A stretch of DNA of 43,950 bases, taken from positions 1 through 43,950 of the IMG/VR virus record IMGVR_UViG_3300036851_000379; one strand, 5' to 3'. The notes under the pieces are model-generated. The model searched no databases. It was not told the origin of the DNA and saw nothing but the letters and a program-made list of their open reading frames with translations. The stretch is from a virus. Below, piece by piece: positions 10,251 through 43,950 of the stretch; position 1 is the stretch's first letter; the number at the start of each line of letters is the position of its first letter. Made by a program: the position numbers and the translations under genes.

Positions 10251-10256
10251 TATACT
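10248..10256 (+). promoter_or_regulatory. Internal promoter TGATATACT sharing a stop codon
   Basis: The TGA stop of the glycosyltransferase (10248-10250) is the TGn part of an extended -10 box, and TATACT (10251-10256) ends 7 nt before the GTG at 10264, predicting a leaderless internal transcript. The same arrangement occurs at 39112-39120 and 40864-40872. Confidence 0.55.
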
Positions 10257-10263
10257 CGTGCCC

Positions 10264-12910: not shown

Positions 12911-12920
12911 CATTCCCGCC

Positions 12921-24036: not shown

Positions 24037-24344
24037 ATCTCCCAGGCCCGAGTTCGGCGGTCGAGGGTGACAATCCCCGATTCCTCCCGCTGAGTTCGCG
24101 CGACAGTCTGCGGGAGTACATCGCTTACTTTCGGCCGGCTCACCCAGGTAGAGAGTTGATCCGGCTTTGCTCCATGCCCCTCGCGGTGTCATCCGCTACT
24201 CACATGGCATGAAGCGAGTATATCGAAAAAATCGGGTACAGCGGGAACATGTTCTAGACTTTTCCACAGCGCGAGAACGCGGGGCGTAACGCGCTAGCCG
24301 GTTCCAGGGGTTCCGGGCGTGATCAACCACGTCAAAGGAGAACC
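24037..24344. other. 308-bp non-coding gap before the capsid gene
   Basis: No gene is seen. It holds a perfect 10-bp palindrome GAACATGTTC (24245-24254), a weak hairpin AGCGCG/CGCGCT (loop 16) near 24270-24295, a direct repeat GGTTCC about 24300-24315 and, on the minus strand, GATATACT at 24217-24224. The capsid ribosome-binding site AAAGGAGAACC ends it. A capsid-specific promoter or a small RNA is plausible. Confidence 0.5.
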
Positions 24345-29531: not shown

Positions 29532-30046
29532 TGGCCGGAACAGGCCCGCAGGATCTGTTCGCGCTCTTGCAGGAGTTCCTAGAGGCGTGTGAGGCATCTC
29601 TGGACACGATCCCCACCTTCGCTCCGGGGCTTGCGGGTGCCCCGGAGCGATCATTCGTCTCTCCCGGACAGCCCCAGTACGATTGCTGCCCCGATGGACA
29701 GTTGACCGTGCACGCGGCGGCGGTCAACTCCGACCCGCTTCAGCCACTTGCAAATCAGGAGCGCTTGAACACCGTCTTTCTGGTCGCAACCATTCTCCGC
29801 TGCGTCCCCTCGACCGGTGAGGACGGAAACTATCCCGAGGTCGTGGAATCCCAGGAAGCGGCAGAGCAGGTTGATGCTGACGGCTGGGCGCTCTGGAATC
29901 ACATCTTCAACCTGATACGAGCCGAAGAGCTATTTACACTCTGCGGGAAGATTCGCTGGGACGGCTTGCGCTCGATTACTCCCTCGGGAGGGTGCGGAGG
30001 CTGGACTTTGAATCTGAGCGTGGAGTACGACGGCTATTTGGACTAG
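29531..30046 (+). CDS. Tail terminator-like protein
   Basis: The 171-aa product lies between the neck gene and the assembly chaperones, where tail terminators sit. It has an N-terminal helix, a 'QERLNTVFLVATILRCVPS' strand pair and a C-terminal 'GGWTLNLSVEYDGYLD'. The start overlaps the previous stop by one nucleotide. Confidence 0.6.
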   Translation: MAGTGPQDLFALLQEFLEACEASLDTIPTFAPGLAGAPERSFVSPGQPQYDCCPDGQLTVHAAAVNSDPLQPLANQERLNTVFLVATILRCVPSTGEDGNYPEVVESQEAAEQVDADGWALWNHIFNLIRAEELFTLCGKIRWDGLRSITPSGGCGGWTLNLSVEYDGYLD

Positions 30047-30059
30047 GAGGTAAACCCGC

Positions 30060-30419
30060 ATGGCACGTAACTTTGATGATGTTCTCTCTCAGGATCGGGA
30101 GTTCACCGTTCGGGGGGAGAAGTTCTCTTTTCAGGACGTACGCCCGGAGGTTCTTTCGGGGTTCGAGATCTCTACGAACGGAGACGAGGAACTATCGGTT
30201 TGGAAGGTGCTGACCGATCAGATCCTGCTCTTTCTCCCCACTGCTGATCACGAGCGCTGGCTTACCCTGAGAGAGCGGGAGACGGAGCCGGTCACGATCG
30301 CGCAGTTGCAGGAGATCATCAAGTGGCTCGTGGAGGCGCAGACCGGCCGCCCTACGGAAGCGCCCTTGCCCTCGGCCTCTGGGCGTGGGAAAACCGCAGG
30401 ATCATCCAAGGGCGCGTAG
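30060..30419 (+). CDS. Tail assembly chaperone, first frame
   Basis: The 119-aa product (MARNFDDVLSQDREFT...) has the 'F.v.ge.f...' start and 'LLFLPTADHERWLTLRERE' helix of siphophage tail assembly chaperones. It ends in a Ser/Gly/Lys-rich tail. It lies directly before the second frame and the tape measure. TAGGAGGTAAACCC supplies the ribosome-binding site. Confidence 0.7.
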   Translation: MARNFDDVLSQDREFTVRGEKFSFQDVRPEVLSGFEISTNGDEELSVWKVLTDQILLFLPTADHERWLTLRERETEPVTIAQLQEIIKWLVEAQTGRPTEAPLPSASGRGKTAGSSKGA

Positions 30420-30652
30420 ATGCTAACGGCGGAGACTCTGAACAGTTGTCTCTTCGCCGCTTCCTCGATATTGCGGAGTACATGCTCGTTGAGGACGCCC
30501 AGCGTATTCCGGGGGTCACGCTCTTGAGCGCCATCGATCTAGTGGCCCCTTCTCAAAAGGACGCGCCGAAGGCCCTGAGTGAAAGACAGGTGGCGGCCCA
30601 GAACGAGTCCTCCCTAAAACAGCTTGAGCAGATGATGAAAGGCGTCAAGTGA
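30323..30652 (+). CDS. Tail assembly chaperone, second frame
   Basis: It lies in the -1 frame relative to the first chaperone and overlaps it by 97 nt. The conserved part includes LSLRRFLDIAEYMLVEDAQ. In most siphophages it is made only as a -1 frameshift fusion. Here the only purine run (GGGAAAA, 30387-30393) is read GGG-AAA in zero frame, so the usual tandem slip does not fit. A GTG at 30323 with GGAG 8 nt upstream could start it independently. Confidence 0.65.
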   Translation: MARGGADRPPYGSALALGLWAWENRRIIQGRVDANGGDSEQLSLRRFLDIAEYMLVEDAQRIPGVTLLSAIDLVAPSQKDAPKALSERQVAAQNESSLKQLEQMMKGVK

Positions 30653-33600
30653 GCGAGTTCCTCGCGGAAGCGTCTGTTCTCGTTCGTCCTGACACGACCA
30701 AGTTCCGAGCCGAGCTTGCTGCTCAGCTGGCGGTCGCCACTCGTGGTGTCTCGATTCCTATTCCGATCGTGGCGGCACCCCTTGCCGCGAGCCAAAGACA
30801 AGTGACCGCTGCGCTGACAGAGACGGCGGCTGCCGCGCAGGTAATGGGGGCGCAGCAGGAAATCGCTGCTCGCAAGGCTCAGACGCTGATCAAATCTCAG
30901 TCCCAGTTGGAGAGAGGGGCGGCTTCCACGGCCCTTTCTCTCGTCGGCGTACGTGGGGCCACCCTTGCGGCCTCAAGTTCCTTCCTGGCAGGTGCGGCGG
31001 CAGTCGCAATCTTCTCCAAGGCAGTCGGGGCTGCCGCTTCTTTGGAGGAGGAACTCAATGTCTTTCGCGTCACCGCTCAGGCGACGGCGGATCAGATGCA
31101 GCGAGTAGGAGAGGAAGCTCGCAAGCTCGGAGCCGACATCTCTCTGCCCGGTGTCTCCGCGACGGACGCAGCCCAGGCCTTCACCGAACTAGCCCGCGCC
31201 GGCTTGGACGTACAGGATGCGTTGGCCGGAGGGCGAGGGGTTCTTCAGCTCGCAACCGCTGCTCAGTTGTCCTTTGCGGACGCGGCAGAACTTACGGCCT
31301 CTGCGCTCAATGCCTTCGGGCTCGAAGGTGAGGAGGCAATCCATGTGGCCGATCTGCTCGCGAACGCGGCTAATGAAGCGCAGGGCGGCATCGGAGATAT
31401 GGGGCTGGCTTTGAGACAATCGGCCGCCGCCGGCCGTCTGGTCGGACTCTCTCTCGATGACACCGTTGCTCTGCTGACCCTGCTTGCCAGGAACGGGCTC
31501 CAGGGATCGGATGCCGGGACTTCACTGAGGGTGGCCCTGCTCAAGCTGGTCAACCCCACCAAGCAGGCCAATCAGGTTCTGGAACAGCTAAACGTTACTT
31601 TGAATGACGCGCAGGGGAATCTACGCCCGGATATCTTTGCGCAGATTGCAGACGCGACCGAGGATCTGGGGATCAAGCAGCGTCGGGCCGCGCTCGGAAT
31701 CATCTTCGGAACAGATGCCATCCGTGCCCAGTCCATTCTCGGACGGGAAGGGGCGGATGCACTCGATGAGATGTCCACTGCTCTCGACCGTCAGGGTGCG
31801 GCAGCGGAGCTGGCAGGAGCAAGGGCACAGGGTTTCTCGGGGCAGATGGCTGCGCTCTCCTCCAACCTAGAGACACTGGGAACGACCCTCGGCTCTCTGA
31901 TCCTTCCTCCGCTCGAACTTTTTACCTCCCAGCTGAACGACACCATCACCACTCTGAATCGGAGCGCTAGTGCGTTCGCGGAGCTGGTGTCAGGACTACA
32001 GAGTTTGGACGCTCCTCTGCGCGCGGCCATTCCTGGCTTCGAGCGTTTCGAGAATGCACTCGGACGTGTTCTCAGTCTGACCGCCGGCGGGCCGTTCATC
32101 GCTACCGCACGGCAGTTTGACTTCCTGGCCGATCAGTTTGGAATCGGAAGCAAGCAGATTCAGGGAGACGCGAAGGACACCGCAAGAGAGGTACGCAATC
32201 TGTTCTCGGCCTTCCAGGAAGCAGGAGGAGGGCCAGTCGCTGTCAACACGCTCGTGGTCGGGATAGACAAGCTCGCGGACAAACTGGCGGCCGGGGATCA
32301 GGAAGCACAAAGACTGGCCGCTGAATTGAGAGAAGTAAAGAAGGAGATCATCGACTTCGGAAATCTTCCCCCGACCGTCTTCGACATCGAGGCGCGGCTG
32401 GACAAGAACAAGGCCCGCCAGGAGGGTAAAGAGGGAGCGGACATCCTGATCGACGTTCTCCGCAGCACTCTGAGCCCAGAGGCTGGGGCTGCGATTGGCT
32501 TTGACTTCATGCAGGGCGTGGGAGAAGGAATCCAGCAGAGCGTGAAGAAGATCAAGCTGACGTTGACTCTGCCCGAATTGCGGGGACAGTTGGCTGGGCT
32601 GTCCGAGAAGTTGATCGGGGCGCAGATCGAGCAAGACCGGCAGGCGCAACTTGCGATCTTGAGAGAGCAGCAGCAGCGCCTTCAGAGGCGTCTCGAAGTG
32701 GGAATCGAGGATGTCAAGGCACGGCGTGAGTTGAAGCAGCAGCTTCTCGACATCACCAACCAGATCAGAAGCATCGAGGATTCGATCGTGGCCGATCAGG
32801 AAAGGGCTGCGCGGGAGGCAGAAGGACGAGCCAGAGAAGCAGAACAGGCACGCAGAGAGCGAGACGCGGCCTTCCTCGATCTACTCGGAGGAACCCAACA
32901 GCGTGCGCAGTCCGCGATCATCGCAGCCCAGGGCACGAAGACCTTGGCCGATGATCTGAAGACCAATCTTGACTTTCGCTCTCTGTTGCGAAAGCAAGTG
33001 GATCTGGTCAAGAAAACCGTGGAGGATGCCAAAACGCGAGCGGAAGAACTCAGAAACTTGGCCCGCCAGTTGATCCAAGTCGGGCAAGAGATCAATCAGA
33101 TCCAGGAGCAGATACGTGAAGCGCGAAGGCAGGAGCGCCGTGAGCGCCGTGAGCGCATCCGGGAGAATCTAGAACTTAGTATCCAGATCGCGGAGGCGAC
33201 GGGAAACCGGGCGGCCGAGGTCAAGGCGCGAGAGGCGGAGATTGCGCGCATCCAGCTAGAGATCCGACAGACCCGCAAGGGATCACTCCAACGAAAGAGG
33301 CTGATCCTGGAACTGCGCCAGACCCAGGCCGAATTGCGAGAGATCCAGAAGGAGAAGGAGAAGACGAACAAATTTGCGGAGTTGGCCTTCGGCTTCCTTC
33401 AACAGCAGCAAGGATTTGCAGCCAACCTGCTCTCGAACCTGATCCCCGCTGGAGCCGCCGCCGGGACAGTGGGTGGTGTCTCCCCGCCTGCCCCTGCTCT
33501 TCCCTCACCCACACTTGCGGTCGAAAGAGAGGGCGCGGTCGCGCAAGTGCGAGAAGAAGGTCTATCGCGCGGTCAGGGGAACACGCAGATCCAGCTGCTT

Positions 33601-33711
33601 AGGGACATCAAGCGGCTCCTCATCGACCTCAACATCGGAACCGGGCACCCTGAAGCCAAGCACCAGCGGATCACTGCAAACGCGGCCTTCGACATGCTGA
33701 ACCCCACCTGA
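30649..33711 (+). CDS. Tape measure protein
   Basis: The 1020-aa product, the longest in the genome, has the TP901-type core (ELARAGLDVQDALAGGRGVL, then LTASALNAFGLEGEEAIHVA and SAAAGRLVGLSLDDTVALLT), hydrophobic segments (ASSSFLAGAAAVAIF) and a long coiled coil rich in Arg/Glu around residues 650-930. At about 1.5 angstroms per residue it predicts a tail of about 150 nm. The GTG start overlaps the previous stop. Confidence 0.95.
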   Translation: MSEFLAEASVLVRPDTTKFRAELAAQLAVATRGVSIPIPIVAAPLAASQRQVTAALTETAAAAQVMGAQQEIAARKAQTLIKSQSQLERGAASTALSLVGVRGATLAASSSFLAGAAAVAIFSKAVGAAASLEEELNVFRVTAQATADQMQRVGEEARKLGADISLPGVSATDAAQAFTELARAGLDVQDALAGGRGVLQLATAAQLSFADAAELTASALNAFGLEGEEAIHVADLLANAANEAQGGIGDMGLALRQSAAAGRLVGLSLDDTVALLTLLARNGLQGSDAGTSLRVALLKLVNPTKQANQVLEQLNVTLNDAQGNLRPDIFAQIADATEDLGIKQRRAALGIIFGTDAIRAQSILGREGADALDEMSTALDRQGAAAELAGARAQGFSGQMAALSSNLETLGTTLGSLILPPLELFTSQLNDTITTLNRSASAFAELVSGLQSLDAPLRAAIPGFERFENALGRVLSLTAGGPFIATARQFDFLADQFGIGSKQIQGDAKDTAREVRNLFSAFQEAGGGPVAVNTLVVGIDKLADKLAAGDQEAQRLAAELREVKKEIIDFGNLPPTVFDIEARLDKNKARQEGKEGADILIDVLRSTLSPEAGAAIGFDFMQGVGEGIQQSVKKIKLTLTLPELRGQLAGLSEKLIGAQIEQDRQAQLAILREQQQRLQRRLEVGIEDVKARRELKQQLLDITNQIRSIEDSIVADQERAAREAEGRAREAEQARRERDAAFLDLLGGTQQRAQSAIIAAQGTKTLADDLKTNLDFRSLLRKQVDLVKKTVEDAKTRAEELRNLARQLIQVGQEINQIQEQIREARRQERRERRERIRENLELSIQIAEATGNRAAEVKAREAEIARIQLEIRQTRKGSLQRKRLILELRQTQAELREIQKEKEKTNKFAELAFGFLQQQQGFAANLLSNLIPAGAAAGTVGGVSPPAPALPSPTLAVEREGAVAQVREEGLSRGQGNTQIQLLRDIKRLLIDLNIGTGHPEAKHQRITANAAFDMLNPT

Positions 33712-34178
33712 TGGCCGACGTAGCTGTCCCTTTCACGCTCACTACCCCGGCGGTCACGCTTGTCTTCAACGACGACTCCGCCGATCAGTATTACATCACT
33801 GAGATCGCGGGACTGGGCGTGCCCCCGATTCGTGCCCCGATCGATAACGTGCCTCTGGGGGACGGAGGGCTGGTTCACGACTTCTGGAAAGGGCCGCGCC
33901 ACATCGCGGTCGAGGGCGTGCTCCTGATCCAGTCCACCCGCATCCAGGACGACATTGTGGACATCCGAAACCAGATGGAGGATGACCTGATCGACGCCCT
34001 GGAATCGATCTTAAGAGCGGATGGAACGCTGGCCTACACCCCGACCGGGGCCTCCGCCCGCTCCTGGACGGTGCGCCACGACATCCCGCTCGACTTCCGA
34101 CACGTCGAGAACTATCTACTCGAATCCTTCTCCTTCGGGCTGGTGGCAGCGGAGCCCGACTGGGCCGGTAGCTCTTGA
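33711..34178 (+). CDS. Distal tail protein-like
   Basis: The 155-aa product (MADVAVPFTLTTPAVT...) begins with a beta-rich stretch and has 'GLVHDFWKGPRHIAVEGVLL' and 'SFGLVAAEPDW', as in the distal tail or minor tail proteins that follow the tape measure. It overlaps the tape measure stop by one nucleotide. Confidence 0.7.
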   Translation: MADVAVPFTLTTPAVTLVFNDDSADQYYITEIAGLGVPPIRAPIDNVPLGDGGLVHDFWKGPRHIAVEGVLLIQSTRIQDDIVDIRNQMEDDLIDALESILRADGTLAYTPTGASARSWTVRHDIPLDFRHVENYLLESFSFGLVAAEPDWAGSS

Positions 34179-35389
34179 GTCTGCTTGTTGAGCTGGACGG
34201 CACGGATGTATCCGGTGTCGCGATTCAGGGCTCCTCCACCCGCAGGCTGAACCGTCCCTCTCTGGGGCAGATCAAGATTCCAATGGACGCCGCGATCGGC
34301 GGCCCCGGCTCCAAGCTCAAGATTACCTTCGACGGCACGCTCCACCATCACGGCACCGTTCTCTCGTGTGAGACGGACGCCGGGGAGGACACGGGCTACA
34401 CGGTCTACAACTCCGCTGATCCGATGGAGTTGTGGCAGTGGAGGCCAGCGCGAGATGACACCTGTGACTTCTCTAAGCCCACCTTCATCGAGGACTATTT
34501 GACTGGCCCGGCGATCATGGAGGACATTCTTTCGAACTCCGAGAATTGTGGAGGAGGAGGGCAGGACGATACCGAAGGCCCGCTCTTCCTCGACTTTGGA
34601 ACATTCGCAGGAGGGGGAGTTAGCTTGACTGGCGCTCCGGTGGATTGGCCGATGACGATTGCGGAAGTTGCGACCTTGCTCACATCTACCGGAGAACTAG
34701 ACATCGTGATCACTCCCACAGACGCGGGCGGCGGAATGATGGGGACGGTGGACTGTTACAACGGAGACTACGGGACAGATCTGTCTGGCTCTCTCGCCTT
34801 CCAGTACGGCACCGGGGCAAGAAACATCCGTCGTGTTCGCTGGAACGAGGACATGACCCAGCTCTGTAACAAGCTCTGGTACTACGGAGGACCGAGAATC
34901 CAGACAGCGGCTGATCCTGCGGGAGATCAGCACTGGTGCTGGAACATCACCGGAGACGATCCCGGCCTGGCTTATCCCCCCGGAGGAGACATCGACACAC
35001 CATCGAGCATCAACCCCATCGGAGAATGTCGGGTTGATTCTCAGTCTCTCTATGGAGTGCGTATGGATATCAGGATCTACGACGCCCTCTCCGATCTCTG
35101 TCTGGGGCCAGGATCTGTTGATCCTGGCAGGGAGCTGTACCGCAGGCTCTGGCAGGTCGAATCCTTTCTACGTTGCCAGCCGCGCGATCTTGTGCACATC
35201 ACCCCGATCAGAGACTTCGGGATCAACTCCTTCGACATCGGTGATCTGGTTACCGTGGAAGCAGGAGCAGTACTCAGAGGAGGCTTCTCAGGCGTCCAGC
35301 GGGTCTACGAGTACACCATCTCCTGGGACGAGGATGGCCCCTTCGAGCTTTCCGAGCTTCAGACCTCTCCCAACAATGAAGGATTCTGA
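34175..35389 (+). CDS. Tail-associated hub / baseplate protein
   Basis: A TTG overlapping the previous stop opens 404 residues, beta-rich, with 'GSKLKITFDGTLHHHGTVLS' near the start and 'SFDIGDLVTVEAGAVLRGGF' near the end. This resembles siphophage hub proteins (Siphovirus ReqiPepy6 Gp37-like or gp27-like). It probably closes the tail tube and carries the fibres. Confidence 0.65.
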   Translation: MSLLVELDGTDVSGVAIQGSSTRRLNRPSLGQIKIPMDAAIGGPGSKLKITFDGTLHHHGTVLSCETDAGEDTGYTVYNSADPMELWQWRPARDDTCDFSKPTFIEDYLTGPAIMEDILSNSENCGGGGQDDTEGPLFLDFGTFAGGGVSLTGAPVDWPMTIAEVATLLTSTGELDIVITPTDAGGGMMGTVDCYNGDYGTDLSGSLAFQYGTGARNIRRVRWNEDMTQLCNKLWYYGGPRIQTAADPAGDQHWCWNITGDDPGLAYPPGGDIDTPSSINPIGECRVDSQSLYGVRMDIRIYDALSDLCLGPGSVDPGRELYRRLWQVESFLRCQPRDLVHITPIRDFGINSFDIGDLVTVEAGAVLRGGFSGVQRVYEYTISWDEDGPFELSELQTSPNNEGF

Positions 35390-35958
35390 TGACCCGCCCG
35401 ATCTATGAGCCCAGCCTGCCCCGCAAAGACGCGGAGCTGGACTATGGCTCGCGGCAGTTGTTTCGTCGCCCCGCCCCTCTGAACGAAGGTCTTATCTGGG
35501 AGCCTGCTTGGGGCTGGCGGCATGGCCCTTCAGGCGGCCCTCTGAGTATCTCTGACAACACGACTACCAATCTCAACAGCTGGGCCACATCAGATGTCAA
35601 ACCAGGGCAAACGAAAGTAGATGTCAGCGTCGCCAACGGCATCTCTCTCGACGGCGGTGTCATGTTCCTGGTCACCCTTCAAATCGACTGGCAAGATGAC
35701 TGGGCCGGAGAGACTTACGTGATGTTCGGCAATACCGCCGGGATTCTCTCTACAACTACAGCGGACATTCTCTATCTCCCGTCGGGGACGGCCGTATTCC
35801 GTTCCCAGACTAGTATCCACTCGTGGCCCTTCGGTGGAACAGTCTTTGCCAATGTGCGGCAGGTATCGGGAATGTCTCGCAACATCAGCGATATTCGTCT
35901 GAACGCTGTTGAAATAGGGGAAGTACCCGATATCGGAAGCGGCGGATTCTGGGGCTGA
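35389..35958 (+). CDS. Minor tail / fibre protein
   Basis: The 189-aa product starts MTRPIYEPSLPRKDAELDYG and the first 50 residues (GLIWEPAWGWRH) look like a fibre attachment peptide. The rest is a beta domain of the 'TVFRSQTSIHSWPFGGTVF' kind common in receptor-binding tips. The TGATG overlap with the hub gene fits a tail-tip complex. Confidence 0.6.
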   Translation: MTRPIYEPSLPRKDAELDYGSRQLFRRPAPLNEGLIWEPAWGWRHGPSGGPLSISDNTTTNLNSWATSDVKPGQTKVDVSVANGISLDGGVMFLVTLQIDWQDDWAGETYVMFGNTAGILSTTTADILYLPSGTAVFRSQTSIHSWPFGGTVFANVRQVSGMSRNISDIRLNAVEIGEVPDIGSGGFWG

Positions 35959-36003
35959 TGAACATTCCTCCTGATCGCCTAGAAGGGAGAGGATGAGATT
36001 CGC

Positions 36004-36492
36004 TTGTTCCCGGCTCTCCCCTTGAAATTCATCGCGGCTCCCTTGAGTGCAGCGAGCGTATTCCTGGGCGACATCCTGACCGACTTCGGGGGCTACGTGG
36101 GAATCGCGCTCAACATCGCGGCGCTGGGGATCTTGGTCGGAGGCTTCGTGGTCGTGGGTTACTACCGATCCTCGGTCGATGCCAAAAACGAGATCATCAA
36201 GGATCTCAAAGACGAGCGGGACATCGACCGACAGAAGACCGAACGGCTAGGAGGTGAAGTCCGTGATCTTCTGATCAAGTGCAAGTCGATAGAAGGAGAG
36301 CTGGAAATAGCCAGACTCCGAGTTATGCAGCTTGAGGAACGACCGGACACTACCTTGTTACTCGCGGATGCGCAGTCAGGCAGACAAGCGGCTGTAGCTG
36401 AGATCTCGGCCAAGATCGACGTGCTCGTGGCGAAGTTCGATTCTCTGGCCCAGTACGTTCTACCCGTTCAAGTCACCCACAAGGAGGAATGA
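36004..36492 (+). CDS. Membrane protein with coiled coil, 162 aa
   Basis: The product has one or two N-terminal hydrophobic segments (SAASVFLGDILTDFGGYVG and IALNIAALGILVGGFVVVGYY) followed by a charged coiled coil of about 70 residues. The start is a TTG at 36004. Its place immediately before the holin suggests a lysis regulator or spanin-like helper. Confidence 0.6.
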   Translation: MFPALPLKFIAAPLSAASVFLGDILTDFGGYVGIALNIAALGILVGGFVVVGYYRSSVDAKNEIIKDLKDERDIDRQKTERLGGEVRDLLIKCKSIEGELEIARLRVMQLEERPDTTLLLADAQSGRQAAVAEISAKIDVLVAKFDSLAQYVLPVQVTHKEE

Positions 36493-36683
36493 TGCTCAAC
36501 TATTTCACCCAGTCCGCGAAGGCCATCTTCGCGGGTCTGGTCGCAGGACTCGGGTCTCTGTCGGCTGCACTGGTGGCCGACAAGAGCCTGGGAGATCTGA
36601 CCGACGGGCAGTGGATCGTAGTCGTGCTGGCGGCGCTCGTGGCCTTCGGTGGTGTCTACGGCATCCGCAACACGAGTCCCTAA
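36492..36683 (+). CDS. Holin
   Basis: The 63-aa product has two membrane helices (AKAIFAGLVAGLGSLSAALV and IVVVLAALVAFGGVYGI) with a short loop, and ends in 'GIRNTSP'. This matches actinophage holins of the 'VYGV-N' type. The second ATG (36492) is preferred because it stands 4-5 nt after AAGGAGG, while the first (36489) is too close. It makes the pore that lets endolysin reach the wall. It is the last gene of the rightward block. Confidence 0.8.
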   Translation: MLNYFTQSAKAIFAGLVAGLGSLSAALVADKSLGDLTDGQWIVVVLAALVAFGGVYGIRNTSP

Positions 36684-36685
36684 AC

Positions 36686-36723
36686 AACAGCGGCCCCGGA
36701 CGGAAGGGAGCGGGGCCGCTGTT
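36686..36723. terminator. Bidirectional hairpin terminator
   Basis: AACAGCGGCCCC (36686-36697) and GGGGCCGCTGTT (36712-36723) form a perfect 12-bp stem with a 14-nt loop. On the + strand it is followed by a short T-rich stretch. It sits between the convergent holin gene and the last gene of the leftward block, so it can end both transcripts. Confidence 0.85.
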
Positions 36724-36748
36724 TCTCCTAGAGGGGAGAGGAGATCCC

Positions 36749-37048
36749 TCAGTCTATACCGAGCAGGCGGGCGCGGCGGTTCTTTTCCGCCATGACTTCT
36801 GCCTGCTCCTCTTCGTTAAGCAGCGTCTGGCGAAATCCCTTGAGATGGCGAGCAGGCGGCCTGCGTCTCTTCAGCGTCTCAGGATGAGCCTCTAGACGAT
36901 GGTGTAGCGCCTGTTCGCGGCCTTCGGCGGTCGTACCCAGATACTCCCATTCACAGAGAGCACAGGCACTTCTGAGGGGCATCTTGTCCCGGCGCTCGGT
37001 CTCCAGTCTGCGCATCTCAGCGGCGCTGAAGCCGCGCTCATCGGTCAC
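36749..37048 (-). CDS. C2H2-like zinc-finger protein, 99 aa
   Basis: Residues near 29-55 (CALCEWEY, then HHRLEAH) make a Cys-x2-Cys ... His-x-x-x-x-x-His finger. The rest is basic and helical. The GTG start overlaps the previous stop. It could be a DNA-binding regulator of the leftward block. It is the last gene of that block. Confidence 0.6.
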   Translation of the reverse strand: MTDERGFSAAEMRRLETERRDKMPLRSACALCEWEYLGTTAEGREQALHHRLEAHPETLKRRRPPARHLKGFRQTLLNEEEQAEVMAEKNRRARLLGID

Positions 37049-37821
37049 TCTGTTTCCCCAGCGTCGTCAGCGAGGACAGCATCTACGAGCGCCCACAGCA
37101 AGTATCGTATGGCTTCCTCGTCGTAATCAGGAGAAGCAGCCTGGGACTTCGCTTGCTTTGCCAGCTCCGTCAGCCGCCCCTCTCTCTCCAAGGCTGCGGC
37201 AAGAGCAGCCTCGGCGATATCGGCGCGGCGTTTGTAGGCGTTGCGATCCTCGCAATCCTTGATGCGAAGTCGTGCCTCGTCCGCAAGCTCCTTCTCGGCG
37301 CGTTCGGCGCGCTCCACCGTTGCATCTAGAGCTACACCCAAGCACCTGGTTTCATGTTCGGCGCGTTCGGCGCGGTCTTCCTGCTTTTTGGCCTCGGCTT
37401 CCCACCCCTGTCGCTCTGCGCGGAATAGCTCGGCCCGTTTCTCCCATAGATCCCGCTCCTTCTTGGCGCGCTCGCTTCTCTTGATTTCGTCAGCACTGGC
37501 GAAACCTCGCGGAGCGCGGAGACGTGCCTCATCCCGCTCCTTCTCGGCGCGAATGGCGCGCTCCTTCCATTGTTCAGCACGGGTACGTTCGCTAGTCTCA
37601 TTCTCGTAATGTAAATCCCGCTCCTTCTGGACTGCGAGGAGAGTGCTCTTTAGGGAGTCGAGGGCGGCGTTCAAGCGAGCGACCTCATCACACAACGCAT
37701 CGAGCAGCGCGGCTGCGTTGCCAGCAGAGCCGTCGCGATTGGCTTCGGCTGATTTCCGCGCCTCCCGCACGATCTCGAACTGGCGCTCCAAGTCTTCACG
37801 CCTATTAGATGCCGGAGTCAC
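37045..37821 (-). CDS. Coiled-coil protein, 258 aa
   Basis: The product is almost entirely charged helix with repeated ERAE and AEKE units (RAEKERDEAR, RAERAEHE, ERAERAEKE). The repeats are visible in the DNA as near-repeats of CTTCTCGGCGCG. It has no head or tail motif I know. It could be a scaffold, an oligomerising DNA-binding protein, or a phage-encoded structural filament. The GTG overlaps the previous stop. Confidence 0.65.
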   Translation of the reverse strand: MTPASNRREDLERQFEIVREARKSAEANRDGSAGNAAALLDALCDEVARLNAALDSLKSTLLAVQKERDLHYENETSERTRAEQWKERAIRAEKERDEARLRAPRGFASADEIKRSERAKKERDLWEKRAELFRAERQGWEAEAKKQEDRAERAEHETRCLGVALDATVERAERAEKELADEARLRIKDCEDRNAYKRRADIAEAALAAALEREGRLTELAKQAKSQAASPDYDEEAIRYLLWALVDAVLADDAGETE

Positions 37822-38069
37822 GGCCGCTCACCTATAGGAGCATGTTTCGCGCAGTAAGCCTCGGGGATGCGCTGGCTCGCGACTCGGTAGAGCTTTGTGT
37901 CGGTCGCACTACAGCGCCCTCGTCCGTCCTCGTGTTCACAGCGCCAGCCCTCCGCACGTCTAAACCAGACATCGCGCTGCTCCCTCGGAACGAGCTTGAT
38001 CGGATCGGGATTCTGTTGTAGCAAGCGATTCCGTTCTGGCTCTTTACTCGTCTTAGATTCAGCGCTCAC
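37818..38069 (-). CDS. Zinc-binding mini-protein, 83 aa
   Basis: The C-terminal half has a Cys/His set (WRCEHEDGRGRCS, then AYCAKH). The GTG at 38069 lies 8 nt inside the previous gene; longer frames run into that gene. The N-terminal half is basic. Unassigned. Confidence 0.55.
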   Translation of the reverse strand: MSAESKTSKEPERNRLLQQNPDPIKLVPREQRDVWFRRAEGWRCEHEDGRGRCSATDTKLYRVASQRIPEAYCAKHAPIGERP

Positions 38070-38322
38070 ACTGCCCCTTTTCCTCGGTGGCGGCGAGGGC
38101 CTCAAGCATCTCATCGCCCGAAATGGGACGACCAAGTTGCTGCTCGATTCCTTCGGGCAGAAGAGACGCGACGAACTCATACCAGCGTCGCCCTCGGCGC
38201 TCAGGCGCTTCGTTCAATACAAAGTCCCGCGCTGCCTCCTCGATCCGCCCAAGCCGCGCGAGGCGGGCTTCGGTTGCAAGACATTGCCGTGGACTAAAAG
38301 AGCGATTAGATTCCAGAGTCAT
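38059..38322 (-). CDS. Hypothetical 87-aa protein
   Basis: The ATG at 38322 is preceded by a weak GGTGGA site. The product (MTLESNRSFSPRQCL...) is helical, with Leu-rich and Arg-rich segments. No family recognised. An upstream in-frame start at 38373 has no ribosome-binding site. Confidence 0.55.
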   Translation of the reverse strand: MTLESNRSFSPRQCLATEARLARLGRIEEAARDFVLNEAPERRGRRWYEFVASLLPEGIEQQLGRPISGDEMLEALAATEEKGQCER

Positions 38323-38457
38323 GGTCCGATTCCACCCGGTGCGTGCGAGAAAGAGCCTTCCTGATGCCAACAACCGTTGCGAAATGCGATAGCAGCGACG
38401 GACACTCCGAGCTAATTCGTAGAGAACCGCTCTCTGAGCTGAAAAGCGTTTTAGATT
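38323..38457. other. 135-bp non-coding gap
   Basis: No gene is seen on either strand. On the minus strand an AGAGA/TCTCT hairpin with a 5-nt loop follows the lysin stop and may be a weak terminator. No clear promoter precedes the ATG at 38322. Confidence 0.4.
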
Positions 38458-39027
38458 TCACGGCTGACACGCCCAAGGGCTCCAGTCCCGCCCGCTCGCC
38501 ACGAAATAGCGGTGAGCAGCGCGCGCCTGTGCCAGAAACGTCTCCCCATGCCCGTAGGTGGAGCGCGCGAAGTCTCCCATCTGGAAGATCCCGAGATACT
38601 GGCCGTTGTGAGCATGGCGGCTGAGACCGCTCTCACACTCGGCCACGGCCAGAGCTTGTTCCGCGTACTCCCCAAATACGTATCGAATCGAGAGCACAAC
38701 GTCTGTTGCCAGCTCCCTCCACCAGCGCTCGTAAGACTTGCGCGCTTGGTGCGCTTTTCCGCGCCAGCGTTCGGCCAGGTAGCGGATGTGAGGGCAAGAT
38801 GACGCTCGCTTGAGCGCGCTTCCAAGCGCCGCTCCTGCCCTCATCTTCTCGCGATGCTCTGCGTACCGCGTGCTGTAGAAGTCAAGTCCGCGCCGGGCAT
38901 CGAAACAGCCCGCGCGTATAACTTGCTTCGCTGCGATTCGGAGTGCATCAGGGGCAGGGCCTGCGGCAGTTCGGGGGAGCCCTGCCCCTGAGCCTGTGAT
39001 CAAACCTATGGCTAGTGCGCCTGTCAC
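38458..39027 (-). CDS. Transglycosylase-type lysin
   Basis: The 189-aa product has a C-terminal lysozyme/Rpf-like domain: AECESGLSRHAHNGQYLGIF around residues 129-148 with a candidate catalytic Glu, then GDFARSTYGHG and a final SGRDWSPWACQP. This is the plan of phage and actinobacterial transglycosylases. The N-terminus is weakly hydrophobic and may be a signal-arrest segment. It is encoded on the other strand from the holin. The GTG start has GAGG 7 nt upstream, and a promoter lies at 39112-39139. Confidence 0.72.
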   Translation of the reverse strand: MTGALAIGLITGSGAGLPRTAAGPAPDALRIAAKQVIRAGCFDARRGLDFYSTRYAEHREKMRAGAALGSALKRASSCPHIRYLAERWRGKAHQARKSYERWWRELATDVVLSIRYVFGEYAEQALAVAECESGLSRHAHNGQYLGIFQMGDFARSTYGHGETFLAQARAAHRYFVASGRDWSPWACQP

Positions 39028-39111
39028 CAGAAACCTCAGATCACCTTTCCTTCCGTCGCTTACACGTCCTCGCCGTGTAGGTGGCGGCGTTCGCGGGTTT
39101 TCAGTTCAGCC

Positions 39112-39139
39112 AGTATATCAAGCTGCCTCAGAAGTCAAG
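39112..39139 (-). promoter_or_regulatory. Lysin promoter with embedded stop codon
   Basis: On the minus strand TTGACT (39139-39134) is followed by TGATATACT (39120-39112), where the TGA is also the stop of the preceding gene. The spacing between TTGACT and TATACT is 15 bp, so the extended -10 is probably the main element. The bases CCTAGACTTGAC at the -35 repeat those of the main leftward promoter. Confidence 0.6.
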
Positions 39140-39438
39140 TCTAGGTTTCGGTTCAGGCGGCGCTCGCAGGCTGCGCGTGCTTCAGGGGTGCGATGTTGGT
39201 GGGGGCAGGTCTTCCATTCGCTCTCGGAGCTTCTCAGATGCCGCAGGGCGGCTTGCAGCGACGGATGGTGCCGGGCACAAACCTGTACCGACCGGGACTC
39301 TGGGTCTTGCTCGTCTACGTGATGTCTCTGGATGAGGCCGTGACAGTCTCCGACCGCAGGGCCGAAGAAGAACTCCACTACGCAAAATTCACGCGGGAGC
39401 CTGCGCCAGTCGCGGCGGTCATAGACGGTTCTCTCCAT
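39118..39438 (-). CDS. HNH/zinc-finger-like protein, 106 aa
   Basis: The middle reads DCHGLIQRHHVDEQDP then VCARHHPSLQAALRHL, which resembles a minimal HNH/His-Cys nuclease fold with two His pairs. A second Cys/His patch (KTCPHQH) lies later. The ATG at 39438 is a few bases after the corrected end of the HNH frame upstream. The stop TGA forms part of the lysin promoter. Confidence 0.55.
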   Translation of the reverse strand: MERTVYDRRDWRRLPREFCVVEFFFGPAVGDCHGLIQRHHVDEQDPESRSVQVCARHHPSLQAALRHLRSSESEWKTCPHQHRTPEARAACERRLNRNLDLTSEAA

Positions 39439-39692
39439 CGGGCATCTAGTCTGAGGTTAGCGTCCGAATCGGCCAGCGGTGCAGCGCATCGTGGCAGGGA
39501 CGACAAAGGTTGAAGCCAGAGAAGATTCTCCGGCACGTCATCACCTCCCTGCGAACGATAGTGGAGATGATGCGGGTCTACTCCAGGCCGCCGTTCGCAA
39601 AGCTCGCAGGGCTCATTCATGTGCTCCAGACGGAAACGCGCGATAGCCTCAGGGTCGCGGATTCGCTTGCGGGGTTTGGGGTCGGCAGTCAA
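39378..39692 (-). pseudogene. HNH endonuclease with apparent +1 frameshift
   Basis: The frame encodes a classic HNH start: PCELCERRPGVDPHHLHYRS with C29, C32 and HH41-42, then GGDDVPENLLWL. There it becomes low-complexity. Skipping one base near 39509 restores LCRPCHDALHRW, the expected zinc-binding and catalytic C-x-x-C-H end of HNH enzymes, with a stop TAG at 39446-39448 just before the next ATG. So the gene is either frameshifted, mis-assembled, or decoded by frameshifting. The TTG start overlaps the previous gene. Confidence 0.75.
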
Positions 39693-39837
39693 TGCACCTG
39701 AACTCTGTTTTGTGAGACGGATAGAGCGTCCTTACCTCTGCCACGTCCTCGCACTTCAGCGGCCGGCCGCAGTTCCAGCACTCGCGCGGTGAGTTGGGCC
39801 AGAGCTTCCATGAGAAAGCCTCAGAACTCTTTGCCAC
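39649..39837 (-). CDS. Zinc-ribbon protein, 62 aa
   Basis: CWNCGRPLKC and FRCIDC, about 24 residues apart, form a typical two-knuckle zinc ribbon. The GTG at 39837 is the nearest in-frame start and overlaps the previous gene by 17 nt; the open frame extends further to 39930. An alternative frame across the same bases ends exactly at the next TTG but lacks the Cys pattern. Confidence 0.55.
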   Translation of the reverse strand: MAKSSEAFSWKLWPNSPRECWNCGRPLKCEDVAEVRTLYPSHKTEFRCIDCRPQTPQANPRP

Positions 39838-40324
39838 AGCATCTACATCTGGCGGGGTACGCTGCGGCACGAGGGGACACCCCGCCAGATCTGAGGGCAT
39901 CACGAAGGGCATGATGCGAAAGCTGCTCATCGACCGCGCGGCGGAGCCAGTCCTTCTGCTCCGGTGGATCGAGGGAAGCCACGGCTCGATGATGAGACCA
40001 GCTCAGGCTCTTGCGGCGGGTGGAGCGTGGAACTCTCTCCGAGACGCGCAGGTACTCGCGCATCCCCTCCTCGGAGATCCCGAGACACTCGGCCGCCTGC
40101 GTCCACTGCTCCGGAAAGAGGCGCTCGCCGTACATGAGCCAGTCCCCGATCGCGAAGCGCAGGCTCTGGTGCATCCGCCCGAGCAGGAAGCCGATGGCCT
40201 CGAAGCGCTCATAAGAGAGAGAGGGATCAGAAAGATGAAGTCCGATCTGGCTGATCGCGCCGTTCTGCTCAAGCTCCGCGAGAAGTGCGATGCCACCTCT
40301 CTCCTGGACGGCGGGTGCGGACAT
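39821..40324 (-). CDS. Conserved phage protein, possible DNA-binding
   Basis: The 167-aa product includes YERFEAIGFLLGRMHQSLRF, 'IGDWLMYGERLFPEQWTQA', 'LGISEEGMREYLRVSERVP', 'SWSHHRAVASLDPPEQKDWL' and a final CRCCGKEF. This set is conserved in many actinobacterial phage and plasmid proteins of unknown function. The 'S..HH..VA.L.p..q..WL..A' part has the look of a helix-turn-helix or ParB-like module. Confidence 0.65.
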   Translation of the reverse strand: MSAPAVQERGGIALLAELEQNGAISQIGLHLSDPSLSYERFEAIGFLLGRMHQSLRFAIGDWLMYGERLFPEQWTQAAECLGISEEGMREYLRVSERVPRSTRRKSLSWSHHRAVASLDPPEQKDWLRRAVDEQLSHHALRDALRSGGVSPRAAAYPARCRCCGKEF

Positions 40325-40531
40325 CTATGAGAACTTGAGCGCCGTCTCTACTTGCACCTTGACCGGCTGCCACGAGCGGTCAGGCACGGCCACAAACTCT
40401 CCGCTGCCATCCTTTGATGCATCGAGATAAGAGCGAATAGCTGCCTTCGCGCTCGAAGCTTCAACCACCCCGAGAGGCACCCATGCGTCCGTGGCAGCTT
40501 TGCTCAGCCTGAGTACGAGGTACTTGGTCAT
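40325..40531 (-). CDS. Hypothetical 68-aa protein
   Basis: The product (MTKYLVLRLSKAATDA...) reads VLRLSKAATDAWVPLGVVEA then SAKAAIRSYLDA, like a small beta-alpha-beta domain found as an early protein in actinophages. It is joined to the ribbon-helix-helix gene by ATGA and to the next gene by TAGATG. Confidence 0.6.
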   Translation of the reverse strand: MTKYLVLRLSKAATDAWVPLGVVEASSAKAAIRSYLDASKDGSGEFVAVPDRSWQPVKVQVETALKFS

Positions 40532-40857
40532 GCGGGTATCTCCTCCTCTTTCGTTACGTAACGCAATTCCAAAATGTCCATGATGATCAATCTCATGCTC
40601 CGAGGAGAATCTGCTGCCTCAGCTTTGATCGCCTGAAACAGTCCCGGCTGAAGCCTCAAGAGCTGCGTGCGCGCCCCGAACTCCAACTTCGAGGGAGCCT
40701 CTGAGGGCGGACAGTCGAGCGAGTAGTGCTCGCATAGGATCGATCGGATGAAGTCAGACAGCGAGCGGCCATCGGCTTCCGCGTCCTTGCGCAGCTTGCG
40801 GAGGATGCGCCGGTCGATGTTGCGCAGGAGGAAGAAGCACCAGAGCTGCTCGTTCAC
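40528..40857 (-). CDS. Tandem ribbon-helix-helix regulator, leaderless
   Basis: Two RHH-like units are visible: 'FLLRNIDRRILRKLRKDAEA', then GRSLSDFIRSILCEHY, and later LLRLQPGLFQAIKAEA followed by 'DSPRSMRLIIMDILEL'. A tandem RHH chain could bind DNA as a pseudo-tetramer. The GTG at 40857 lies 6 nt after TATACT with no ribosome-binding site, so it is probably leaderless. The coding end includes the perfect palindrome CGTTACGTAACG at 40552-40563. Confidence 0.65.
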   Translation of the reverse strand: MNEQLWCFFLLRNIDRRILRKLRKDAEADGRSLSDFIRSILCEHYSLDCPPSEAPSKLEFGARTQLLRLQPGLFQAIKAEAADSPRSMRLIIMDILELRYVTKEEEIPA

Positions 40858-40863
40858 GTCACG

Positions 40864-40872
40864 AGTATATCA
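40864..40872 (-). promoter_or_regulatory. Promoter TGATATACT sharing a stop codon
   Basis: TGA (40872-40870) is the stop of the preceding gene and the TGn part of TGATATACT. TATACT (40869-40864) ends 6 nt before the GTG at 40857. Confidence 0.6.
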
Positions 40873-41040
40873 CCAGATCACGCGACGGACGCGCCGTTTG
40901 CAGCACAAACAGAAATAGTGTCCAGCCACGAGCTGCGCCCATCCCTTTCCGCAGGCACGCCTCTCCCAGTTCGAGGAATTCAACCTCACGCTCTTGAGCG
41001 TGTTGCAGTAGACAGGCACCATTAGCGGCGCGTTCTTCAT
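40870..41040 (-). CDS. Zinc-finger mini-protein, 56 aa
   Basis: AGGGGAGGGA precedes the ATG at 41040. The product (MKNAPLMVPVYCNTLK...) has Cys at CNTL, ACGKGW and CLCC, the last pair near its basic C-terminus (CLCCKRRVRRVIW). It looks like a small zinc-binding DNA or RNA protein. Its stop codon belongs to the next promoter. Confidence 0.55.
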   Translation of the reverse strand: MKNAPLMVPVYCNTLKSVRLNSSNWERRACGKGWAQLVAGHYFCLCCKRRVRRVIW

Positions 41041-41102
41041 TCCCTCCCCTGAGGATAAGAGTCCTAACGGACAGTCTCAGTCTGACAGGACGAGCCCGAG
41101 AG

Positions 41103-41339
41103 TCAACCCTCGTTCGAGGGAACTTCATGCTCCTTGCGAGAACTTTTGGCGTCTTCCCAGTAGTCGAAACCGTCAGCAATCACCAGCGGTGGCTCAAGAT
41201 AACCGGAGCGCAAGTCCACCGCCGCGCGGTAGAGCTTGCCCTCCCAGGTAACGGTATCCCCGATGAGGTAAACAGTCAGCGGCTCCCACTTGCCCCGGCG
41301 GATGGGCTCAGCTCTGGGGCGTGGCCCTGGAATGTTCAT
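41103..41339 (-). CDS. Hypothetical 78-aa protein
   Basis: The product has a basic start (MNIPGPRPRAEPIRRGKW) and a beta segment (LTVYLIGDTVTWEGKLYRAA) that resembles a small carbohydrate- or wall-binding module of the 'Y.vGd.V..nGklY.a' kind (CBM5/12-like). It overlaps the previous gene by 32 nt. Its stop lies inside a TTGACT that could be the -35 of a promoter for the next gene. Confidence 0.6.
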   Translation of the reverse strand: MNIPGPRPRAEPIRRGKWEPLTVYLIGDTVTWEGKLYRAAVDLRSGYLEPPLVIADGFDYWEDAKSSRKEHEVPSNEG

Positions 41340-41535
41340 CCGCTTCCTTGAAAATCAGCTCAGCCTCATCAGTCAGTACGTCCGCCCAGAGCCAGGAATC
41401 CTTGAGGATGAGGATGGCGTCATGCTTCTCGGCCTCCGAGGGAGAGTCGAGCGGCATGTGGTGCTTTCGGCGCAGGTAGCGCTCGAACACGGGCCGTCTC
41501 TGAAATTTCTTCGTCTCAGGCAAATTCTCGGTCAT
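41308..41535 (-). CDS. Hypothetical 75-aa protein
   Basis: The ATG at 41535 overlaps the previous stop (ATGA). The product (MTENLPETKKFQRRP...) is mixed charged and helical with a Trp pair (KDSWLWADVLTDEAEL). No family recognised. Confidence 0.6.
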   Translation of the reverse strand: MTENLPETKKFQRRPVFERYLRRKHHMPLDSPSEAEKHDAILILKDSWLWADVLTDEAELIFKEADEHSRATPQS

Positions 41536-41657
41536 CGCTCTGGCCTTCGATAGCCCATGTAGCCAAAATGGGCACCGAGCGCCATCCCGATATTGACACC
41601 AAAGAGAAACAGCCAAATCCCCATGAGCACCCAAAACGTGAGAACGAGAAACGTCAT
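41532..41657 (-). CDS. Small membrane protein, 41 aa
   Basis: The frame is bounded by ATGA overlaps at both ends. The product is one long hydrophobic segment (MTFLVLTFWVLMGIWLFLFG, then VNIGMALGAHFGYMGY) with a basic tail RRPER, so it is a predicted membrane protein of one or two helices. It could be a small lysis or exclusion peptide. Confidence 0.6.
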   Translation of the reverse strand: MTFLVLTFWVLMGIWLFLFGVNIGMALGAHFGYMGYRRPER

Positions 41658-42118
41658 CCCTTCATCATCTCCCTCACTCGCGCCGGATCAGGCGGCACGG
41701 CCCGTGTTCCATCCGTCCGCCAGAAAGACGCATCGACGGAGCCGTGGCAATCAGGGCATGGGGCGTAACCCTCAGGTTGAACCTGAACGAGCACAAAGCG
41801 ATCTCCTCCACACGTGGGGCAGGCCGTGCTCTCGCTCTGAAGATTGACCCCGCGCGTCTTACGCTGGGCCCTCTCCTCGAAAACCCGCAGCCAGTGCTTG
41901 GCGAGCGCGCTCGGGGTGAGCATCACATCCGGCATCACCTGCCGGTACATCTTCGCGCGGGTGTGGATCTCGTCCGCCAGGATGTAGCTGTCCGTGATCT
42001 CGGGCGACTGCTCGCGGATCGACTTCAGCGCTCCGTTCAGTTCTCCGCGCGCCTGCGTTTGGTCGCTGCCTGTCACTTGCGCCAGGGCTTCGTAGGCGTA
42101 GTCCCTAGATCTCGACAT
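41654..42118 (-). CDS. Zinc-ribbon protein with helical N-terminal domain
   Basis: The ATG at 42118 begins MSRSRDYAYEALAQVTGSD. The pattern 'DEIHTRAKMYRQVMPDVMLTP' then SALAKHWLRV is typical of a conserved phage protein near replication genes. It is followed by a zinc ribbon (CPTCGGDRF ... CPDCHG). It might act in replication initiation as a loader or adaptor (inference). Confidence 0.6.
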   Translation of the reverse strand: MSRSRDYAYEALAQVTGSDQTQARGELNGALKSIREQSPEITDSYILADEIHTRAKMYRQVMPDVMLTPSALAKHWLRVFEERAQRKTRGVNLQSESTACPTCGGDRFVLVQVQPEGYAPCPDCHGSVDASFWRTDGTRAVPPDPARVREMMKG

Positions 42119-42284
42119 CGCGCTTTCCAGTCTTCTCAGTCCAGATCCATGGCTTCTCCGTGAACTTCGGCCCAGGCTCATTCTTCAATTCCCGCTCAGT
42201 CTCTAGCAGATCTTCCCAGAGCGAAGTCTTTTGTGGGTCGCCGTCATCGTAGATCTTGATCTTCATCTTCGTCTTATCGCTCAT
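42105..42284 (-). CDS. Hypothetical acidic 59-aa protein
   Basis: The product (MSDKTKMKIKIYDDGD...) is a short beta start followed by charged helix with two Trp near the end (KPWIWTEK). The TAG at 42105 overlaps the next gene by 14 nt. AAGGGAGTGTGAG precedes the ATG. Confidence 0.55.
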   Translation of the reverse strand: MSDKTKMKIKIYDDGDPQKTSLWEDLLETERELKNEPGPKFTEKPWIWTEKTGKRDVEI

Positions 42285-42285
42285 C

Positions 42286-42408
42286 TCACACTCCCTTCTC
42301 TCTTCGTAGCTTGTTCTTCATCTTTAGTTCTTTGCGCGTAGCGCGCCCGGTATCCCTACCCACCACCACCCGACCGTTTCTCACAGCGTCGTCCCGTAGC
42401 GTTCTCAC
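42286..42408 (-). CDS. Candidate basic 40-aa protein
   Basis: A GTG at 42408 with GGAGG 7 nt upstream opens 40 codons, MRTLRDDAVRNGRVVVGRD, ending in a Lys/Arg-rich helix KMKNKLRREKGV. The stop is 1 nt before the next ATG. The composition suits a DNA- or RNA-binding peptide. Coding is supported only by the ribosome-binding site and the tight spacing. Confidence 0.45.
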   Translation of the reverse strand: MRTLRDDAVRNGRVVVGRDTGRATRKELKMKNKLRREKGV

Positions 42409-42606
42409 GCTGCCGCCTCCACGTGGAAGGCCGACGCAACGCTGGCAGTCCCACGTTTGACCGCCCGATGCGCTAGGCTTTGCTCACTGTTTGATTCTGC
42501 ACCGGAGCAAACAGTAGCCTCCGCCCGCGACTCGCGCAAGAGGTTTCGCGACAGCCCCCTCACTGGGGGCTGTTCGCTATCTGAGGGCGGAGAGGAGACT
42601 ACGCCC
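42409..42606. other. 198-bp non-coding gap with two dyads
   Basis: It holds ACTGTTTG (42486-42493) / CAAACAGT (42508-42515), an 8-bp inverted repeat with a 14-nt centre, and the hairpin at 42551-42573. No open reading frame with a ribosome-binding site is seen except the candidate gene that starts at 42408. An operator and terminator between two parts of the leftward block is the simplest reading. Confidence 0.45.
42551..42573. terminator. Hairpin, probable terminator
   Basis: ACAGCCCCC (42551-42559) and GGGGGCTGT (42565-42573) form a 9-bp stem with a 5-nt loop just after the stop of the recombination gene (42607). Neither side has a long T-tract, so it may be a weak terminator or an RNA-processing site. 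Confidence 0.5.
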
Positions 42607-43446
42607 TCATTCCTCGGAGATCGCAAGCTCTTGCCCTTCGAGCACCGAAGCCCAGGCCGCACGGATGTCCTCGACGCCGGGTGGAGGAAACTTTCCCGGA
42701 TCATGCTCGCGTGCGATCTTGAAGGCAGCGCCCGCTGCCACTTTGAGAAGCTCTGCCTTCATCTCCTTGCTCAGCCCGTCCGTGTTCACGGAGCCGGGGA
42801 AGAGCAGCCGGCGGGCTGCATCCGCGAAGGCGTAGAAGAGGTCATGCACGCCTTCGTCGTAGGCGGACACCATCTCGGTCACCTTCGCCCAGGAGGTGGG
42901 TCTACGCGGCGGCTCAGGGCCTTCTATGCGTACCTCCGGCTCAGCGGGCATCTCGGCTTCGGGGGTGGCCTCGTAGCCCGCCAGGGTCATCACGAACCCG
43001 AGCGGGTGTCTCAGGGCTTTGGAGACGGCGCGTGTCTGGGCCATCGAGCGAAGCGCGTAATCGTCCCGGCTCTTCCAGGTCGCTTCCGCTCGCGTGCACA
43101 TGGCCTCTGCCGCCCCCACTTCATCCCCGTTTCGGGTGCGGGCGACGACACGGGCCTCCCAGCCGTCCTCGATCGGCCGCGTCCACTCGACCACCGGGAA
43201 GACGCCCAGCATGCTCCCGAGCAGCGTCCAGCCTTCGACGTAGACATGCTTCTTACGCCCGATCTGCTTGAACAGCTCCTTGGACTCGATCACGGCAGCG
43301 AGCGCGTTAGCGGCCTCGGTCGCGCGCTCCACGACCGTCACCGGGGAAGCGTCCCCAAAGAGATTGACCGCGTGTTGCTCGCGGACGGCGGGCAGGTTCT
43401 CCATGATCTCCTCTACCTCGGCCTCGATGGTTTCGGGTTCAGACAT
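42607..43446 (-). CDS. Single-strand-annealing-type recombination protein (tentative)
   Basis: The 279-aa product contains 'GRKKHVYVEGWTLLGSMLGV', 'DEVGAAEAMCTRAEATWKSR' and 'YALRSMAQTRAVSKALRHPL', then GFVMTLAGYEATP. This set occurs in many actinophage proteins placed in recombination or single-strand-binding contexts (ERF or Rad52-like), but I am not certain of the fold. The ATG at 43446 has GGGAGAAG upstream and overlaps the previous gene by 8 nt. It is the only recombination candidate in the genome. Confidence 0.6.
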   Translation of the reverse strand: MSEPETIEAEVEEIMENLPAVREQHAVNLFGDASPVTVVERATEAANALAAVIESKELFKQIGRKKHVYVEGWTLLGSMLGVFPVVEWTRPIEDGWEARVVARTRNGDEVGAAEAMCTRAEATWKSRDDYALRSMAQTRAVSKALRHPLGFVMTLAGYEATPEAEMPAEPEVRIEGPEPPRRPTSWAKVTEMVSAYDEGVHDLFYAFADAARRLLFPGSVNTDGLSKEMKAELLKVAAGAAFKIAREHDPGKFPPPGVEDIRAAWASVLEGQELAISEE

Positions 43447-43639
43447 GACGAACTTCTCCCGAGATCCATTCGATGTCTCCATGTGCCCACAGCATTACCA
43501 CTGGTAGCTTGCCAAGATTCATGTCGAGACTGAACTCAGCTCCCAGGCGCGTGAAGTGCCGACGTAGGAACAGTTCTTCAGGCTCTCTGCGCCCAGGCAA
43601 TTTCCAGACTGCCCAAGATTCCCAGCGACGCCACTTCAT
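43439..43639 (-). CDS. Hypothetical 66-aa protein
   Basis: The product (MKWRRWESWAVWKLPG...) has five Trp and a basic first half. No family recognised. ATGA couples it to the upstream gene, and its end overlaps the recombination gene. Confidence 0.6.
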   Translation of the reverse strand: MKWRRWESWAVWKLPGRREPEELFLRRHFTRLGAEFSLDMNLGKLPVVMLWAHGDIEWISGEVRHV

Positions 43640-43827
43640 CGCAGGTACTCCGCAAGCTCGGCTGAGCAGACCGGGGAGCGCAGGAACTCATCGAGCGTCC
43701 GCCGGAGCTGTCGCTGTGCCTGCTTCGGGTCTTGCTCCTTGAGCGCGAGCGCGATCGACATGCTCAGGCTTCCAACCCAGAACGGATCGGACTTAGCGGC
43801 CTCGGGAATCAGCGTGAGCACGTTCAT
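43636..43827 (-). CDS. Hypothetical 63-aa protein
   Basis: The product (MNVLTLIPEAAKSDPF...) is helical and amphipathic. Its ATG overlaps the stop of the gene at 4-294 once the circle is closed, so the junction is inside an operon. No family recognised. Confidence 0.65.
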   Translation of the reverse strand: MNVLTLIPEAAKSDPFWVGSLSMSIALALKEQDPKQAQRQLRRTLDEFLRSPVCSAELAEYLR

Positions 43828-43950
43828 CAGGCCCAGCCTCCTCGGTCAATCACGCGTTGAAGCTCAACGCGCTTGGGGTCATTGGGCTCATAGGCTTCCA
43901 GGTCTTCCTCGGTCACGCGCACGTAACCGCGTGCCGCGTCTTGACCTTCG
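43824..43950. repeat. Terminal direct repeat, right copy
   Basis: Identical to 1-127. It contains only the 3' part of the 96-aa gene (start at 294 in the left copy), so no additional gene is present here. Confidence 0.97.

Follow-up and report, generated by a model that had tools for sequence, protein, structure and literature searches.

Gene content of the phage contig

The window, by which we mean the whole analysed stretch of 43,950 bp, is an uncultivated tailed-phage contig with 61% GC, in which genes for the terminase, the portal, the major capsid protein and the tape measure protein were recognised. Its major capsid protein is closest to those of actinophages (~33%). Between the terminase and the portal gene (9564–13820) lie glycosyltransferase-like (GT) genes and a nucleotide-sugar epimerase. 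A search for the host with the terminase across bacterial and archaeal genomes returned nothing but distant matches in Rhizobiales and Sphingomonadales (32–41%) and, at 62%, a contig of 19 kb from a Gemmatimonadota MAG, which may itself be a binned phage sequence. Positions 30000–43950 of the window had zero matches among cultured phages in a DNA-similarity search, and an Rfam scan and a tRNA scan of the window were both empty. A dispersed 12-bp palindrome, CGTTACGTAACG, is present in seven copies with up to two mismatches (1054, 6450, 13506, 15706, 23725, 28777, and 40552) compared to ~0.6 in shuffles; relatives carry 7 (G001), 7 (G008), 8 (G014), 4 (G016), 5 (G029) and 0 (G007) copies, and it looks like an operator or partition-type site of the phage family.

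Stop codons within putative extended -10 boxes

The 9-mer TGATATACT occurs at 10248–10256 on the plus strand and at 566–574, 39112–39120, and 40864–40872 on the minus strand. According to the initial annotation, the TGA stop of one gene forms the TGn element of an extended -10 promoter at the last two sites and at 10248, and this is borne out by the reading frames: the TGA ends the ORFs 9564–10250, 39118–39438, and 40870–41040.

At 10248–10256, the TGA (10248–10250) is the stop codon of a glycosyltransferase-like gene of 228 aa (9564–10250, plus strand; phrog_14945, E 2e-9; homologues 38–56% identical) and TATACT (10251–10256) is the putative -10 hexamer. It is preceded, with a spacer of 16 bp, by a -35-like element matching TTGACA in five of six positions. 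The next gene, encoding a protein of 90 aa here called family A (10264–10536, plus strand), begins with a GTG 7 nt after TATACT and is leaderless by its layout, and its orthologues start 7–8 nt past the box. This start, rather than the nearer GTG at 10258, matches the N-termini and the spacing of most orthologues. The product is predicted to form a long-helix coiled coil (helical AlphaFold model, pLDDT 84, computed like that of family B below from an input of only 3–4 sequences), and the family A sequence profile is too variable for scanning.

At 40864–40872, the TGA (40872–40870) terminates a small ORF of 56 aa (ORF D; 40870–41040, minus strand) with a cysteine pair near its end, and TATACT occupies 40869–40864. 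The C-terminus of ORF D, RVIW directly before the stop, resembles that of an ORF in the relative G001 (SVVW before the stop, E 6e-4) and, judged by eye, that of a frame in G008 ending with PVVI. The TGA stop at this junction is common to the window and G001, and in G008 the frame resembling the upstream gene ends, again by eye, at a TAG inside TATAGT. The GTG of the following gene, which is likewise leaderless by its layout, lies 6 nt after TATACT and opens the family B gene of 109 aa (40528–40857, minus strand; PF22513, E 5e-8). Its product is a predicted tandem ribbon-helix-helix DNA-binding protein with beta-alpha-alpha predicted twice, a fold that would be similar to AvtR, single-chain Arc and TraY, with PDB matches at E 0.01 or more. 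The distances of 6–7 nt to the next start that had been noted for two of the sites thus stand, with GTG 10264 at 7 nt and GTG 40857 at 6 nt.

The remaining boxes differ in their surroundings, and not all four precede a leaderless gene. At 39112–39120, the TGA (39120–39118) is the stop of ORF C (39118–39438, minus strand, 106 aa; homologues 61% in G001 and 55% in G014), the next gene starts ~85 nt past the box, and TTGACT, five of six to TTGACA, lies 15 bp upstream of the hexamer. The orthologous position in G001 (5790) carries TGATATCGT; here the box is kept, but lies within the upstream gene, which continues past it to a GTGA overlap. The copy at 566–574 lies 5 nt after the stop TGA 582–580, as described initially, and precedes a leadered gene (539–294, minus strand) whose ATG at 539 is located 26 nt past the box behind the ribosome site AGAGAGGAG; the matching junction in G008 holds CGATATACT. 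A fifth site, the variant box TGATACACT at 3742–3750 (plus strand), is placed 7 nt before the ATG at 3758, and its TGA ends a doubtful ORF of 46 aa. Apart from these junctions, CGATATACT is found at 24217–24225 (minus strand), antisense in the pre-capsid gap. It follows a T-run, and the ATG 6 nt further on opens a frame of only 4 codons, so this is a possible promoter of a small RNA or antisense transcript.

In dinucleotide shuffles of the window 0.08 copies of TGATATACT are expected, and 0 of 100 shuffles reached four. Under a 4th-order Markov model no other 9-mer of the window is as strongly over-represented (p 4e-7), a result that is only borderline once ~130,000 9-mers are corrected for, so that the comparative evidence counts for more. 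TATACT occurs five times, preceded by GA in 5/5 and by TGA in 4/5 cases. All four boxes are on the sense strand and no more than 100 nt ahead of a start codon, a space covering 8% of strand positions. At 3/4 sites (10248, 39120, and 40872) the TGA of the box ends the upstream ORF in frame, a rate that in the window alone is not significant (p 0.11 vs 1/3).

Conservation of the layout in related phages

A search of 52 related records for the exact word TGATATACT found it only in L157, which suggested absence of conservation, a conclusion overturned by the orthologous positions, at which the layout is kept with other cores. At the GT/family-A junction the window reads TGA TATACT N7 GTG, and six relatives hold TGA-TATnnT-N7/8-RTG with the cores ACT, CGT, or AGT: L157 (TGA TATACT N7 ATG), G001 (TGA TATCGT N7 ATG), L017 (TGA TATCGT N7 GTG), G008 (TGA TATAGT N7 ATG), and L016 and L018 (both TGA TATCGT N8 ATG). 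L019 shows TAG TATCTT N8 ATG, and in G016 family A follows the terminase (TerL) with TGA TAGCAT N7 ATG. Between phages the core bases vary; TGATA, the spacing and the position are constant. No promoter is present at the GT junction of G014, which has an ATGA overlap, and of several other relatives. The use of one trinucleotide both as a stop and as part of a promoter is real and is kept at orthologous junctions in distant relatives.

Across the phage family, TAnnnT follows the TGA stop at 10/57 junctions with a gap of 12–14 nt and at 0/~340 others, a count that leaves out alternative starts of the same junctions and for which the Fisher p of 2e-9 overstates independence because the junctions are related by descent. 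There is a second form of overlap in which a TAG or TAA stop supplies the first three bases of TAnnnT, 6–7 nt before the start (window 12908–12923, L019, L129, L141, L147, L165, and L148). At a gap of 10, TARnnT, in which TAG or TAA opens the hexamer, looks enriched as well (5/10 vs 21/347, p 3e-4).

Probable promoter identity and leaderless geometry

Extended -10 promoters recognised by sigma-70/sigma-A require the TG, and transcription starts ~7 nt downstream. Four exact sites and one variant in the window match TGnTAnnnT and, besides 10248 and 39120, the -35 regions of the window sites score 2–3 of six, as background does. A hexamer 6–7 nt before the start in combination with a missing ribosome site is found at 10264 and 40857, and by spacing at 3758. 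In the window as a whole, TAnnnT peaks 6–7 nt before RTG starts with 17 occurrences vs ~3 expected (other spacings ~1.5 each), and the same peak appears in several relatives and in the cultured actinophages Giles, phiC31, Zipp, and DSL-LC01. In the Gemmatimonadota MAG the spacing peak is only weak, and TGA-TAnnnT at a gap of 12–14 is absent. In a first set of relatives, n is A in 10/10 TGnTAnnnT boxes at leaderless spacing; in a wider set it is also G or C where the box holds no stop, so A is not strictly required. GTGATA is present in 12/13 TGATAnnnT boxes compared, which agrees with the Gram-positive extended motif -17 TRTG -14 (PMC2613000). In actinobacteria, TANNNT and 22–24% leaderless mRNAs are normal (PMC6448022, PMC8780764).

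Together with the conserved junctions, TGnTAnnnT and the spacing of 6–7 nt support the initial assignment of extended -10 promoters, with leaderless genes at two sites. We judge it about 80% probable from the sequence that the motif is a sigma-70/sigma-A extended -10 promoter, mostly of leaderless genes, to which the stop codon supplies the TG, and that the overlap is an economy rather than a switch. The promoter would have the form RTGATAnnnT, in most cases lacking a clear -35 box, and RNA polymerase would initiate 6–7 nt downstream, on or beside the ATG/GTG, so that most of these genes would be read from leaderless mRNA, while the sites 574 and 39120 would yield leadered mRNA. With genes packed tightly in a GC-rich genome, the upstream TGA would double as the promoter TGn, bringing stop, promoter and next start into ~20 bp and giving the downstream gene its own promoter within a gene run. 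Selection acting on each element separately may maintain this overlap, with no switch between translation and transcription.

Alternative explanations

The box might mainly be the binding site of a phage regulator, e.g., family B binding over the -10 element at its own promoter and at others, with the promoter function alongside. This is conceivable, as each phage tends to use one core at separate sites (TATACT four times in the window, TATCGT three times plus TATCAT in G001, TATAGT twice in G008) and as family B, a predicted single-chain ribbon-helix-helix DNA binder, directly follows one box. The repetition in the window (4/4) and in G008 (2/2) is more uniform than TANNNT demands and leaves room for a sequence-specific regulator. 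However, sites per phage are few, G008 retains TATACT at its F/E junction, and the repetition may stem from promoter preference or recombination, and we regard this explanation as unlikely. Slightly more doubtful still is a phage-wide regulatory site in which candidate family B proteins would bind a phage-specific core over their own and other -10 elements, the cores would change together, and the embedded stop would free the site from coding constraint.

The initial annotation had also proposed that termination of translation is coupled to promoter access, i.e., that termination at the TGA, or a ribosome trailing RNA polymerase, would control the internal promoter. In favour of this, seven phages keep the stop in register at the GT/family-A junction although their GT tails diverge, L019 retained a stop (TAG) while losing the TG, G016 has the same layout behind a different gene, the terminase, and the unrelated phage L281 shares it in front of a small-terminase-like gene (by eye). 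The stop is, however, not always part of the box: the promoter persists without it at 574 and at G001 5790 (the upstream gene there runs on to an RTGA overlap), with the stop shifted into the hexamer (TAG) before family B in G008, and with TAG in place of TGA in L019. Outside the family, GGTGATATACT or CGTGATATCGT placed 7 nt ahead of an ATG that opens an ORF was looked for in unrelated GC-rich viral contigs; among the matches listed, only 2/7 such sites end an upstream ORF of at least 45 codons, one of them that of L281. Ribosomes terminate on mRNA, and we know of no mechanism that ties termination to recognition of a duplex -10 element. Coupling is thus unsupported and appears very improbable; as stop and promoter separate repeatedly and few outside sites carry a stop, economy of packing is the simplest account. 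Finally, the chance recurrence of a short word that is AT-rich against a GC-rich background, with which the borderline excess of TGATATACT after correction across all 9-mers would be compatible, is hardly credible, being contradicted by the sense-strand position of all copies upstream of genes, the exact spacing of 6–8 nt and the conservation at orthologous junctions.

Comparison with known systems

With the leaderless promoters of mycobacteria (PMC4633059, PMC6448022), Streptomyces (PMC8780764), and Deinococcus-Thermus (PMC12340547), the phage promoters share TAnnnT 6–7 nt before ATG/GTG and the lack of a ribosome site; they differ in being placed in a gene junction and in including the stop codon of the upstream gene. 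A stop-codon passage in the mycobacterial work treats RTGA coupling, and text searches of the Deinococcus-Thermus paper (PMC12340547) turned up no reference to stop codons. A directed literature search found no prior description of stop codons built into the -10 boxes of leaderless genes, which does not prove that none exists. The junctions described here provide a concrete conserved case in which stop, -10 element and start are packed into ~20 bp, and a simple rule (a stop, TAnnnT, 6–8 nt and RTG) that may serve to locate internal leaderless promoters and to correct start codons in GC-rich phage genomes.

Well-known extended -10 sigma-70 promoters are galP1 and lambda PRE. The phage boxes have in common with this TGn/-10 class, including the Gram-positive TRTGn promoters (PMC2613000), the TGn right before the hexamer and a poor or absent -35 element, and are distinguished by being leaderless and by having A as n in every box whose TGA serves as a stop. 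Stop codons overlapping the Shine-Dalgarno sequence of the next gene (PMC2784483) likewise use one trinucleotide for the stop and the next initiation signal at short gaps, whereas the signal shared in the phage is a DNA promoter element and not a ribosome site. Nothing in the data points to a new mode of control: promoter type and mechanism are ordinary and known, and the space-saving layout is real.
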